Assembly (NCBI GenBank): GCA_020631355.1
Contig: JAHDHL010000003.1
Location: 62,001 to 126,000, forward strand
DNA: 64,000 nt
Direction: 5' to 3'
Origin: Saprospiraceae bacterium
GTDB lineage: Bacteria; Bacteroidota; Bacteroidia; Chitinophagales; Saprospiraceae
Below, in pieces: positions 9,491 through 33,580 of the stretch. Below the pieces are notes generated by a model. That model saw only the letters and a program-made list of their open reading frames with translations, had not been told where the DNA came from and ran no database searches. The position numbers and the translations under genes are program-made. Every line of letters starts with the position of its first letter. Positions within the stretch are counted from its first letter, which is position 1.

Positions 9491-10270
9491 ATGATGATGA
9501 AACCACTTATTTTAGTTACCAATGATGATGGTATTGTAGCACCAGGAATCAGGGTGTTGGTTGAGGAAATGAAGCAACTCGGAGAAGTGGTTGTGGTTGC
9601 TCCCGACTCGCCCCAATCCGCAAAGGGGCACGCGATTACATTAATGAGTCCGATTCGATTGAATAAGGTCGATGTATTTGATGGGGTGGAATCCTACGAA
9701 TGTTCCGGTACGCCTGCTGACTGTGTCAAGATTGCTAAGAGCGTGATATTGGCTGATAGGAAAATCGACCTTTGTGTCTCAGGCATCAATCATGGTTCGA
9801 ATGCTTCTGTGAATATCATTTATTCCGGAACCATGTCAGCAGCTATGGAAGCTTCTTTGGAGGGTATCCATTCCATTGGATATTCCCTGGAGGATTTTGA
9901 TTATGATGCTGATTTTAGTCCTTGTAGGCCCATTGTAAGACAAATATCTGCATGGATTTTGGAGAATGGCATGAAAAATACCAAGTTGCTGAATGTCAAC
10001 TTTCCAAAAACAGAGGGTGGCCCTTACAAGGGTATAAAGGTATGTAAGCAATCCGAGGGATATTGGTCCGAAAAATATCATATTGCAGAAGACCCTAGAG
10101 GAGAGAAGTATTACTGGTTGACAGGAGAATTCATCAATCAGGATAATGATTCCAATACCGATAAGGTTGCACTAAGTAACGGATACGTTTCCGTCGTTCC
10201 CTCCCACCATGATTTAACACAATACAAGGCATTGGATGGTGAATTAGACGACCTAACACAATTGATATGA
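9491..10270 (+). CDS. surE: 5'/3'-nucleotidase SurE
   Basis: 259 aa. The N terminus LVTNDDG supplies the Asp-Asp metal pair (residues 12-13 from the first Met), followed by VVAPDSPQSAKGHAITL, YECSGTPADCVKIA and CVSGINHGSNASVNIIYSGT, all SurE signatures. SurE dephosphorylates nucleoside monophosphates and some polyphosphates in stress survival. Three consecutive ATG codons (9491, 9494, 9497) are possible starts; the first is listed. Its stop overlaps the next start as ATGA. Association with lpxB through a small membrane gene is an arrangement I recall from other Bacteroidota. Confidence 0.95.
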   Translation: MMMKPLILVTNDDGIVAPGIRVLVEEMKQLGEVVVVAPDSPQSAKGHAITLMSPIRLNKVDVFDGVESYECSGTPADCVKIAKSVILADRKIDLCVSGINHGSNASVNIIYSGTMSAAMEASLEGIHSIGYSLEDFDYDADFSPCRPIVRQISAWILENGMKNTKLLNVNFPKTEGGPYKGIKVCKQSEGYWSEKYHIAEDPRGEKYYWLTGEFINQDNDSNTDKVALSNGYVSVVPSHHDLTQYKALDGELDDLTQLI

Positions 10271-27356: not shown

Positions 27357-29210
27357 ATGAAACCAATTGTAAGCATTTTACTTTTTTTACCCCTATTCTT
27401 CAATCTTTCCATAGCACAGGATAGTTTAAGAATCGATAGTCTCAGACAGATTGTCGAGACATCCACTACTCAAGATACCAATAGGGTCAATGCACTTACA
27501 GACTTGGCACAGGAATACAATAATCGCATTGATTTTGAAAAAATGCTTCCCCTGGGTATCGAGGCACTTCGACTCTCTGAAGAACTAGGTTTTGATAGAG
27601 GTATCGGAATGTCTTACAATGCCATGGCAGCACATCATGTTTACGGTAAGAACTACGACAAGGTAGTTGATAATTCTCTCAAGGCCCTCAAAGCATTCAA
27701 GAAAGCCGGAGGTGATGAACAAGAAAATACTTCCCTCAACAATCTGGGTATTGCCTATAATTCACTTAAGGATTTCCCCAAGGCAATAGATACCTACAAT
27801 ACCATTTGGGAAAGGGTCAAAGATAAACGACCATATAGTCAAATCCATATGGCAACCCTTTATAATCTATCTGAAGCTTATAAGGGTGTCATGGATACGG
27901 ATAATGTAATCCGTTGTAATGAATTGCTTCTTGAGATTGCAGAAGAACTCGATTCAGACAGAGGAAGAATAGCTGCATATTCCCAATTGGCTAACATCAA
28001 TGTACCAAGAAACATCAATCCAAGGCTTGCTATAGAATATGCCAACAAGGGATTGGAAATAGTGGACTCCGTCCAGCAATTGAATCAGTATTATCATCTG
28101 GTTTTTGCCATAGCCCAAGCCAACTTCAGTCTAAGGAATTATGCCGAAGCAGAGAAAGATTATAAAAGGTGTATCCATCATTCCAAGGAAACAAAGAATT
28201 ACGGAGGTGTTGAAATAGGTTATCAAATCCTGAGTCGTGTATATCTAGAGCAAGAATTGGATGAAAAGGCTTTCTCTGCCATGAAGAATTCCAGTAAATT
28301 CTCACTGGAGGGTGTAGAGGATAAGAATAGGAAGCTCATCAGGGATTTGGAAGTCCAATACGAAACGGATAAAATCCGGGAGGAAAAGGTCAGTGCTGAA
28401 AAAATAGCAGTACTGAACAGGAATCTACTCATTGCATCACTGGTCAGTCTATTGATGTTCAGTATTATTGCTTTCTTCTTATTCAGACAACAAAAACTCA
28501 AGAAGCAAGCAGAATTGATTCAATTGGAATTAAAGGAAACAAAGGCCAAATTGGAATTGGAGCGTCAATTAAGGAATTCCGAGCTCAAGGCTCTCAAGGC
28601 CCAAATGAATCCTCATTTCCTATTCAATGCATTTAATTCCATACAAGAATACATTATTCTCAATAAAAAGGAAATGGCAAGTGATTATCTGGGTAAATTC
28701 GCTGACCTTATGAGAATCTATCTGGACCATTCCAGAGAAAAGAGTATTGTATTAGAGGATGAAATCAGGGCAGCAGACTTATACCTAGAATTGGAACGTA
28801 TCCGTTTTGAGGAAGAAATGGAATACGAAATCAATGTGGATGAGAATGTGGATGAGGAAATGACAAGTATACCGCCTATGCTGATACAACCCTTCTTGGA
28901 GAATGCCCTTAAACATGGCTTATTCCATAAGAAAGGAGATAAGCGAATCCAATTGGCATTCAAAAAGGATACTGAAAATGCACTGATATGTTCCATTAGA
29001 GATAATGGTATAGGGCGTAAGGCATCTGCATTAATCAATCAACAAAGACTGAAAAAACATAAGTCATTTGCAACTGCTGCTACCCAGAATCGTATAGAAT
29101 TACTTAATATAGGTAGGGAAAAAGCCATTACATTTACCATCCATGACCTAACGGATGAAAATGAAAACCCATTAGGAACAGAAGTAATTCTTAGAATACC
29201 AAGCAAGTAA
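27357..29210 (+). CDS. TPR-containing LytS-type sensor histidine kinase
   Basis: 617 aa. A signal peptide (about 1-20) leads to a periplasmic TPR-like helical region (about 40-335), a coiled stretch, one membrane segment (about 355-377), a coiled coil, and a His_kinase domain (PF06580 type) with LKAQMNPHFLFNAFNSIQEY; phosphoacceptor His420. The ATP-binding domain has PPMLIQPFLENALKHG and RDNGIGRKAS. The layout matches kinases paired with LytTR regulators in Bacteroidota. The cognate regulator begins 2 bp after the stop. The signal sensed by the TPR region is unknown; protein or peptide ligands are plausible. Confidence 0.92.
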   Translation: MKPIVSILLFLPLFFNLSIAQDSLRIDSLRQIVETSTTQDTNRVNALTDLAQEYNNRIDFEKMLPLGIEALRLSEELGFDRGIGMSYNAMAAHHVYGKNYDKVVDNSLKALKAFKKAGGDEQENTSLNNLGIAYNSLKDFPKAIDTYNTIWERVKDKRPYSQIHMATLYNLSEAYKGVMDTDNVIRCNELLLEIAEELDSDRGRIAAYSQLANINVPRNINPRLAIEYANKGLEIVDSVQQLNQYYHLVFAIAQANFSLRNYAEAEKDYKRCIHHSKETKNYGGVEIGYQILSRVYLEQELDEKAFSAMKNSSKFSLEGVEDKNRKLIRDLEVQYETDKIREEKVSAEKIAVLNRNLLIASLVSLLMFSIIAFFLFRQQKLKKQAELIQLELKETKAKLELERQLRNSELKALKAQMNPHFLFNAFNSIQEYIILNKKEMASDYLGKFADLMRIYLDHSREKSIVLEDEIRAADLYLELERIRFEEEMEYEINVDENVDEEMTSIPPMLIQPFLENALKHGLFHKKGDKRIQLAFKKDTENALICSIRDNGIGRKASALINQQRLKKHKSFATAATQNRIELLNIGREKAITFTIHDLTDENENPLGTEVILRIPSK

Positions 29211-29212
29211 TC

Positions 29213-29962
29213 ATGAGAGCCATAGTCATAGATGATGAAATGAAAGCAAGAAGCCTATTGACAACCATCTTGAGGGAGTACTGCCCTACTGTCAATGAGG
29301 TGTTCGAAGCAGAGGATTTGCCAGGTGGTGTTGCAATCATCAAGGAAAAACATCCGGATATTGTCTTTCTGGACATAGAAATGCCCGGTTATTTGGGTGT
29401 CCAGATTTTGGATTTCTTTGATGAGCACGAAATCAACTTCCATATTGTTTTCACTACGGCCTATAATGAGTATGCTATCAAGGCATTCCAGATGAACGCA
29501 GTGGATTATCTACTCAAGCCACTCCGTCCTAATCAGATCAAGGAATCCGTGGCCAAAGTGGAGAAAATGGTCCAGCAAAAGAATATCTCCGCACAATTGG
29601 TGGAACTCAAGGAAGCCATGCAAAATAATAAGTTCGGAAAAATAGGTTTGCCTGTTTCCGATGGCATATACTTTGTCCGGATAGAGGACATCATCTATTT
29701 GAAAGCAGATGGTATGTATACGCATTTTTACCTTCTGAATGATGAGAAGAAAGTCATCAGCAAACCCATGAAGATGTTTGTGGAGATTCTGAAAGGTGAC
29801 CCAACATTCTACCGACCTCATCGTTCGTTCCTAATTAATGTAAGATTCATCAAACAATTGGTCAAAAAAGACGGGCCTTATATTATTATGGACAATGAGG
29901 GTATTGTTTCTATTTCCAGAGAAAAAAAGGACGAACTAATCACGCTTTTGGAATCACTCTGA
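29213..29962 (+). CDS. LytTR-family response regulator
   Basis: 249 aa. Receiver domain at 1-120 with acidic pocket DDE (7-9), phosphoacceptor Asp54 in FLDIEMPG, T/A switch in VFTTAYNEYAIKAF and LLKPLRPNQ. The LytTR DNA-binding domain covers about 140-245 (EDIIYLKADGMYTHFYL, FYRPHRSFLINVRFIKQL). It is separated by 2 bp from the kinase gene and is almost certainly its partner. No target sites could be assigned. A strong terminator follows. Confidence 0.95.
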   Translation: MRAIVIDDEMKARSLLTTILREYCPTVNEVFEAEDLPGGVAIIKEKHPDIVFLDIEMPGYLGVQILDFFDEHEINFHIVFTTAYNEYAIKAFQMNAVDYLLKPLRPNQIKESVAKVEKMVQQKNISAQLVELKEAMQNNKFGKIGLPVSDGIYFVRIEDIIYLKADGMYTHFYLLNDEKKVISKPMKMFVEILKGDPTFYRPHRSFLINVRFIKQLVKKDGPYIIMDNEGIVSISREKKDELITLLESL

Positions 29963-32473: not shown

Positions 32474-33238
32474 ATGTCGAAACTGAGGGCAGTAATTATT
32501 GATGACGAGAAGGGAGGTAGAGATACGTTAGCTAATTTTCTGAAGTTGTATTGTGAGGATGTCGAACTGATTGGTGAGGCAGATGGCGTAGAAACGGGTT
32601 TGAGCCTGATTCGAGGCCTGAAAGACCCTCTTGATATTGTTTTCTTGGACATACAGCTGAAAGACGGATTGAGTTTCCAAATCCTGGACCAACTGGATAA
32701 TATTGATTTTGAAGTCGTGTTTGCCACGGCATATAATCAGTTTGCCATTAAGGCATTCAACTATAGTGCAGTGGGTTATCTTCTTAAGCCGATCGACCCA
32801 GAGGAATTAAAAGCTGCTGTGGAGCGTACCCAGAATGGTAGGAGTCCACAGATGAAAAAGCGCCTGGAGGTTTTATCCAATCACTTCAACAATCCGAATA
32901 CTTTCGAAAAGATGAGTATCTCAGCGGTTGATGGAATCTATTTCATCAACATCAAGGATATCATGAGATGTGAGGGTGAGGATAATTATACCCATATCTA
33001 TATGATAGGAGGTGAAAAGATTACCGTTTCTAAAACCATAAAGGAATACGAAAAGTTATTGACTCCGGTCAATTTTTACAGGGTTCACAAATCCCATGTA
33101 GTCAATCTGAATTTCATCACGAAATTCGTAAAGGGTGAAGGTGGATACTTGATTATGGATGATGGAAAAATGATTGAAGTTTCAAGAAGAAGACGTGCCG
33201 CATTCATGGAACAACTGCGAAAATTACAGTCCACATAG
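32474..33238 (+). CDS. orphan LytTR-family response regulator
   Basis: 254 aa. Receiver with IDDEKGG (9-15), phosphoacceptor Asp59 in FLDIQLKDG, FATAYNQFAIKAF and LLKPIDPEELKAAVERT, then a LytTR domain (about 145-250: IKDIMRCEGEDNYTHIYM, FYRVHKSHVVNLNFI). It is similar in layout to the regulator at 29213, but no kinase gene adjoins it. The next gene downstream on the same strand, 131 bp away, encodes the 51-aa GG-motif peptide; LytTR regulators often control peptide genes, so a link is plausible but unproved. Confidence 0.93.
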   Translation: MSKLRAVIIDDEKGGRDTLANFLKLYCEDVELIGEADGVETGLSLIRGLKDPLDIVFLDIQLKDGLSFQILDQLDNIDFEVVFATAYNQFAIKAFNYSAVGYLLKPIDPEELKAAVERTQNGRSPQMKKRLEVLSNHFNNPNTFEKMSISAVDGIYFINIKDIMRCEGEDNYTHIYMIGGEKITVSKTIKEYEKLLTPVNFYRVHKSHVVNLNFITKFVKGEGGYLIMDDGKMIEVSRRRRAAFMEQLRKLQST

Positions 33239-33283: not shown

Positions 33284-33307
33284 TTTTGACGTTTTGGTAT
33301 ATTTTTG
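33284..33307 (+). promoter_or_regulatory. putative promoter region of the small peptide gene
   Basis: TATTTTTG (33300-33307) fits TAnnTTTG. TTTTG (33284-33288) lies 11 bp upstream. Overlapping it are two copies of TTTTGGTA (33292-33299 and 33303-33310) spaced 11 bp, about one helical turn, which could be a regulator site. Predicted leader about 55-60 nt. Confidence 0.4.
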
Positions 33308-33369: not shown

Positions 33370-33525
33370 ATGAGATGGAAAAAGAAAAAAGATCTCTCAA
33401 CCTTTACTGAAAAGGCTGCCAAGGATGGAAAAGTCCTTGACAAAAAGGATACCCAAAAGGTAAAGGGAGGCAAGGTTCGTAAGGATCATATCTGGAATGG
33501 TTGTGGGGGGATTATCCCACACTAA
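33370..33525 (+). CDS. 51-aa basic peptide with GG motif, RiPP-precursor-like
   Basis: A short gene: ATG, 51 codons, TAA, with a perfect terminator 20 bp downstream. The N-terminal 34 residues are Lys/Asp-rich and carry KKDTQKVKGG (25-34), recalling the leader end of Bacteroidota GG-type peptide precursors; the rest is short and ends WNGCGGIIPH with a single Cys45. No signal peptide or membrane segment. It stands alone between an orphan LytTR regulator and a GH15 gene; no modifying enzyme, peptidase-transporter or immunity gene is in the window. Coding status rests on complete ORF, promoter-like element and terminator. It could be a secreted signal or natural-product precursor, or a small cytosolic basic protein. 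Confidence 0.65.
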   Translation: MRWKKKKDLSTFTEKAAKDGKVLDKKDTQKVKGGKVRKDHIWNGCGGIIPH

Positions 33526-33545
33526 ATAATTGTCTATAAGCAAGA

Positions 33546-33580
33546 AAATCCCTATTGGTTAGCACCAATAGGGATTTTTT
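33546..33580. terminator. bidirectional terminator after the 51-aa peptide gene
   Basis: Perfect 14-bp stem (AAATCCCTATTGGT / ACCAATAGGGATTT) with a TAGC loop, followed by six T on the plus strand and TTTTC on the minus strand; it also serves the convergent GH15 gene. Confidence 0.92.

Follow-up and report, generated by a model that had tools for sequence, protein, structure and literature searches.

A double-glycine peptide gene conserved with a LytTR regulator and a soluble TPR histidine kinase in Saprospiraceae: a possible peptide signalling system

Is the open reading frame of 51 codons that lies behind a LytTR response regulator gene in a Saprospiraceae bacterium a real gene, and if it is, what does its product do? 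The question is of some general interest. Peptide signalling is well established in Gram-positive bacteria, and to our knowledge it is hardly known in this Gram-negative group. Here, we address it by comparing the window, i.e. the whole 64,000-nucleotide stretch of DNA that was analysed, with the genomes of relatives, and by weighing the readings that the comparison leaves for the peptide.

The reading frame spans positions 33370 to 33525 on the forward strand, from ATG to TAA, and the product is MRWKKKKDLSTFTEKAAKDGKVLDKKDTQKVKGGKVRKDHIWNGCGGIIPH, with 51 residues. It should be pointed out that its length alone is no proof, since frames of similar size arise by chance in dozens (85 of at least 40 residues overlap the surrounding 12 kb), and the gene call therefore rests on the comparison with relatives. 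Using BLAST, homologues were found in 11 of 61 close genomes, namely in most genomes of its own genus and in several others of the family. A search profile built from 12 peptide sequences gives matches in 111 of 298 Saprospiraceae genomes, about one third, at a cut-off of E≤0.01, with some doubt about the few weakest of them. With a 63-row profile and 395 genomes drawn across the phylum, the peptide turned out to be confined to Saprospiraceae save for two weak matches, both with E of ca 6e-4 (L137 in G416 and L138 in G420), which may represent further GG precursors from elsewhere in the phylum.

Between similar copies of the gene, the substitutions are concentrated at third codon positions and are mostly synonymous; the copies at loci L056 and L022 differ at 13 nucleotides, and 13 of the 13 differences are synonymous. 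This pattern indicates that the gene is under codon-level purifying selection. The homologue search proposed in the earlier note has thus given a positive answer, with the GG and the C-terminal motif conserved, and the complete frame that it considered overlooked is a genuine gene, as judged from the homologues, the substitution pattern and the conserved position behind the same regulator. An Rfam scan of the region gave no match, and a sigma-70 promoter scan gave nothing useful.

The flanking elements were examined next to the coding sequence. The claimed -7-like box is indeed found, as a candidate Bacteroidota -7 promoter box of the TAnnTTTG type (TATTTTTG, 33300 to 33307, forward strand) whose placement in the window is ambiguous, and a TAnYTTTA/G promoter-like box recurs 5′ of the peptide start codon in many relatives. 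An intrinsic-terminator-like stem-loop follows at 33545 to 33578 on the same strand. The earlier description of it as a perfect 14-bp terminator 20 bp past the stop is right as to the stem-loop and the spacing (ca 20 nt), but the stem has 15 bp, with perfect pairing between the arms 33545–33559 and 33564–33578 and a TAGC loop. Its location between convergent genes would also allow it to act for the GH15 gene on the opposite strand. Over the family, 45 of 70 loci have a hairpin with a T tail behind the stop codon of the peptide, as compared to 3.8 in shuffles, and this feature together with the recurrent upstream box makes it seem that the peptide gene has its own short transcript.

Turning to the peptide itself, the canonical C39 leader positions predict a leader comprising residues 1–34 (33370 to 33471, forward strand) that ends in LDKKDTQKVKGG, and the core features of the family predict a mature peptide of 17 residues, KVRKDHIWNGCGGIIPH (33472 to 33522, forward strand). 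GG is present at −2/−1 in 70 of 70 distinct family members, and in the leader consensus of these position −12 is occupied by L/I/M/V and D/E predominate at −8, M/L at −7 and I/V/L at −4, which fits the classical C39 double-glycine pattern and bears out the claimed GG-leader precursor. The cores of the 70 members have 15–29 residues and a mean net charge of +3.4, and they carry a strongly conserved C-terminal motif of C-G-G-I-x-P-Q type; the predicted core in Neolewinella persica, for example, is KRRGSWLRRVCGGIMPQ. The conserved GG and Cys region that had been postulated is therefore only partly right: the GG and the C-terminal motif are conserved, but the Cys is not invariant, being present in 58 and absent from 12 of the 70 distinct cores, with other residues in its place in otherwise conserved members. 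None of the curated family models covers the peptide, the matches being weak and to GG-leader models only, and a PDB search with the peptide profile returned chance matches only.

A paralogous precursor (56%) exists in the same genome at G000:C9:134602-134751 (L013, ca 9600–9758, minus strand). Its core is almost identical, RIWNGCGGIIPQ, and it has no regulator or kinase alongside.

We now consider the genomic setting. The upstream gene, at 32474 to 33238 on the forward strand, encodes a LytTR response regulator of 254 residues, consisting of a receiver and a LytTR DNA-binding domain (Pfam PF00072 and PF04397), and a gap of 131 nt separates its end from the peptide frame. Among 71 loci ascertained through the peptide, 60 have a LytTR orthologue immediately before it and 52 a TPR histidine kinase immediately after it; the regulator orthologues upstream of the peptide are 54–88% identical. 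As a design against circularity, the named genomes were also searched with the regulator only, blind to the peptide, which yielded 80 loci. The peptide is next downstream on the same strand in 74 of the 79 testable ones, and the TPR kinase then comes after it in 57 of the 75 with enough sequence. A consistent genomic link between the peptide and the neighbouring LytTR gene is hence supported, and regulation of the peptide gene by the product of the latter is a possibility. The two-gene setting in which the link was framed is correct for regulator and peptide and misses a third component, the soluble TPR histidine kinase. On the strength of this recurrent gene order, the regulator, the GG peptide and the soluble TPR kinase are judged to be a conserved three-gene set. 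The case illustrates that a small gene which no curated model covers can hold a central place in such a system.

The set is found in Neolewinella, Lewinella, Flavilitoribacter, Phaeodactylibacter and many metagenome bins (Saprospiraceae and kin), and is conserved throughout a family of environmental bacteria. It is also present in cultured strains: Neolewinella persica, N. lacunae, N. agarilytica, N. aquimaris, Lewinella cohaerens and Flavilitoribacter nigricans. The other neighbours common to the loci are an ion-channel protein and a penicillin-binding protein (named by sequence inspection), pointing to an inherited chromosomal locus with vertical descent rather than to a bacteriocin island.

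In systems of the ComCDE/Pln type, the LytTR regulator binds to direct repeats that precede the precursor gene. A family-wide direct repeat of the LytTR type was sought upstream of the peptide gene across the loci and was not found, so that autoinduction is no more than a possibility. An excess of LytTR direct repeats with 21-bp spacing (20 versus 2.7) stems from few loci, mostly L102, and was rejected as a family-wide feature.

The window contains also a separate two-component pair a few kb upstream, consisting of a membrane TPR histidine kinase (27357 to 29210; called HK27357 below) and a LytTR regulator (29213 to 29962). This pair, 3–4 kb away, was considered as the source of the cognate kinase of the regulator at 32474 and was rejected, since a separate TPR kinase co-occurs with that regulator and HK27357 already has a regulator next to it.

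In the kinase of the three-gene set, TPR repeats precede a PF06580/HATPase core, and no HTH domain match was obtained for it. It lacks a membrane segment, its maximal hydropathy being nearly always below 1.75, compared to 2.74 in the control HK27357. In the genome of the window, the orthologue is at G000:C134:130946 (508 bits; the next best protein is below 160 bits), with neither regulator nor peptide beside it, and from this arrangement the kinase gene is taken to have moved away from its two partners in the window's genus.

The predicted structure of the kinase (mean pLDDT 86.9, 43 sequences) has a TPR superhelix over residues 13–368. The model matches RapI with Z 25.0 (352 residues aligned) and NprR with Z 24.5 (347 aligned), and its bacterial matches are mainly Rap and NprR structures, some of them peptide-bound, with Z of 21–25 over ca 290–355 residues; the sequence profile of the kinase reaches Rap3T and RapJ as well. 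The eukaryotic protein LGN, on the other hand, matches the model as well or better (Z 27). TPR is a generic fold whose superhelices look alike, and the model of HK27357, intended as a control, was of unusable quality (pLDDT 47.6); the modelled likeness to Rap and NprR is for these reasons suggestive only. A further comparison concerns the evolutionary distances. When regulator and kinase-domain distances are allowed for, the core distances track the TPR-domain distances (partial Mantel 0.22, p 0.04), a weak effect in one of seven tests, with the core tracking also the regulator (0.32). The leader distances do not track the TPR-domain distances in the partial Mantel analysis.

The co-occurrence of the components was studied in a sample of 150 genomes, whose make-up was inferred from the genome numbering, giving exactly 150, and with a threshold for regulator orthologues of at least 310 bits, below which there is a clear gap. 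Regulator and kinase orthologues co-occur in this sample (72 of 73 versus 5 of 77, with p-values that ignore phylogeny), and both are present in all 50 peptide-positive genomes. A C39 peptidase is encoded in 50 of the 50 peptide-positive genomes, compared to 43 of the 100 peptide-negative ones (Fisher 3e-14, not corrected for phylogeny). There are 22 genomes that have regulator and kinase without a match to the peptide profile. The loci of 20 of them were examined by reading, and in 18 a divergent GG peptide turned out to follow the regulator; most of these peptides end in P-Q or in P-S/L/H/R. The two without a GG peptide are G110 and G018 (L221). The latter has kept regulator and kinase, lacks both C39 and peptide, and is the only genome with regulator and kinase that is without C39.

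In one genome of the set, G077 (L222), two GG precursors stand in tandem within the cassette, and in G006 (L103), G071 (L101) and G237 (L114) GG precursors with similar ends are located away from regulator and kinase. Some genomes may for this reason send more than one peptide.

The search for a C39 peptidase in the genome itself, suggested by the earlier note, was successful. The single C39 peptidase-ABC transporter is at G000:C114:147750-149933 (L025, 11751–13937), on the same contig and 52 kb downstream. It is unlinked to the cassette and stands alone, and no membrane fusion or outer-membrane partner is in view in its L025 neighbourhood.

On balance, it is probable in our view that these components form a peptide signalling system of ComCDE-like organization, in which a cytosolic TPR kinase, perhaps similar to Rap and NprR, replaces the membrane receptor. 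Guided by its 34-residue leader, the precursor would reach the C39 peptidase-ABC transporter, to be cleaved there after Gly-Gly and exported as the basic 17-residue peptide. The CGGIxPQ-type C-terminal end would then be recognised in the superhelical groove of the TPR kinase, either after re-import, following the logic of Rap and NprR, or from a pool that is not exported. The kinase would by this means set the phosphorylation state of the LytTR regulator, presumably by phosphotransfer, and the regulator would alter the transcription of its target genes. The scheme predicts that a short synthetic peptide should shift gene expression via one named kinase and one named regulator. Points against it include the generic nature of the TPR fold, the weak Mantel effect, the lack of a family-wide LytTR repeat, the unlinked C39 transporter, the outer membrane that also has to be crossed in a Gram-negative cell, and the separation of the kinase gene from its partners in the window's genus.

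In the main rival reading, the peptide would be an output of the system and no signal, i.e. a secreted bacteriocin-like or other effector that is controlled by a regulator–kinase pair sensing something else. GG leaders are common to pheromones and class II bacteriocins, the cores are short and basic (+3.4 on average), and there are weak matches to bacteriocin leader models. However, clustering of the neighbours of at least 90 residues revealed no recurrent immunity-like or second structural gene, the channel and penicillin-binding proteins next to the loci speak for vertical inheritance, and the C-terminal motif is strongly conserved family-wide. We consider this alternative unlikely, while giving it more weight than the ones below.

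Another option is that the peptide acts intracellularly, where it would regulate the kinase, serve it as an adaptor or report on export capacity, so that signalling would be independent of secretion. A soluble kinase is directly reachable by an unexported precursor. This scenario leaves, however, the maintenance of the canonical C39 recognition positions and of the GG ending in 70 of 70 members to be accounted for, as well as the presence of a C39 peptidase in each of the 50 peptide-positive genomes and the absence of the peptide from G018, where C39 is missing. It appears improbable to us.

The earlier note had also considered a RiPP-like precursor. In this reading, the conserved Cys would be matured by a distant YcaO or radical SAM enzyme. 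The Cys is common, the look-up proposed for such enzymes did retrieve one YcaO and two SPASM proteins in the genome, and the commonest weak match of the family is TIGR04149, an rSAM-modified RiPP (24 of 63 members, best E 1.9e-4). None of these enzymes is near the locus, though, and no maturase recurs within ca 5 kb of the loci; the Cys is replaced in otherwise conserved members, and the similarity to TIGR04149 is weak, while the window peptide shows none at E≤1, with no curated RiPP family reached. The proposal is on these grounds abandoned as very improbable. Finally, a small RNA with an incidental frame, for which the promoter-like box and the terminator might suggest a short transcript, can be dismissed with near certainty in view of the third-position substitution bias, the conserved protein ends and the lack of an Rfam match.

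How does the favoured signalling system compare with known ones? ComCDE, BlpHR and PlnABCD are GG-pheromone systems of Gram-positive bacteria with LytTR regulators. Common to them and the present system are a GG-leader precursor, a LytTR regulator and a histidine kinase in one locus, and a C39-ABC exporter in the genome. Here, however, the host is a Gram-negative member of Bacteroidota, the exporter is unlinked and the cores are unrelated. Also, while ComCDE and Pln have a polytopic membrane receptor of HPK10 type, the kinase is in this case soluble, with a TPR sensor and a PF06580 core. The logic of GG pheromone, histidine kinase, response regulator and C39 exporter is described for ComDE and BlpHR (PMC7595303).

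With the RRNPP proteins (Rap, NprR, PlcR, Rgg, PrgX), the system shares a cytosolic TPR protein whose gene is beside that of a small propeptide in the relatives, though no longer in the window's genus. Rap and NprR can be aligned to the TPR fold over almost their entire length, but generic TPR proteins give equal or better matches. In contrast to the HTH of the RRNPP proteins, or the helical bundle of the Rap phosphatases, the effector is a histidine kinase domain (PF06580 and HATPase), and the peptide has a GG leader instead of the usual signal of an RRNPP propeptide. A large survey of RRNPP systems covered Firmicutes genomes only (PMC10075063).

Within Bacteroidota, genes for an HK/RR pair or a TPR protein accompany the GG precursors of some RiPP clusters of Bacteroidales (PMC10352776). 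The GG leader in a Bacteroidota peptide is common to these, to the precursors of TIGR04149 type and to the peptide studied here. The present system differs from the TIGR04149-type precursors in that its loci lack an rSAM gene or any other maturase gene, and in its core, which is unrelated and may be without Cys. In the open-access literature searched, we found no earlier description of the system and no characterised quorum system of GG peptide and two-component type in Bacteroidota, and the cassette looks like an undescribed bacterial communication system. By its defining features it fits neither ComCDE, from which the receptor differs, nor RRNPP, from which the effector and the leader differ. 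We propose tentatively, and with less confidence than the signalling role as such, that it represents a quorum-sensing class native to Gram-negative Bacteroidota, in which a C39-processed GG pheromone would be read intracellularly by a soluble TPR histidine kinase acting on a LytTR regulator. It is possible, and again short of probable, that this class is sensing of the RRNPP type joined to two-component signalling.
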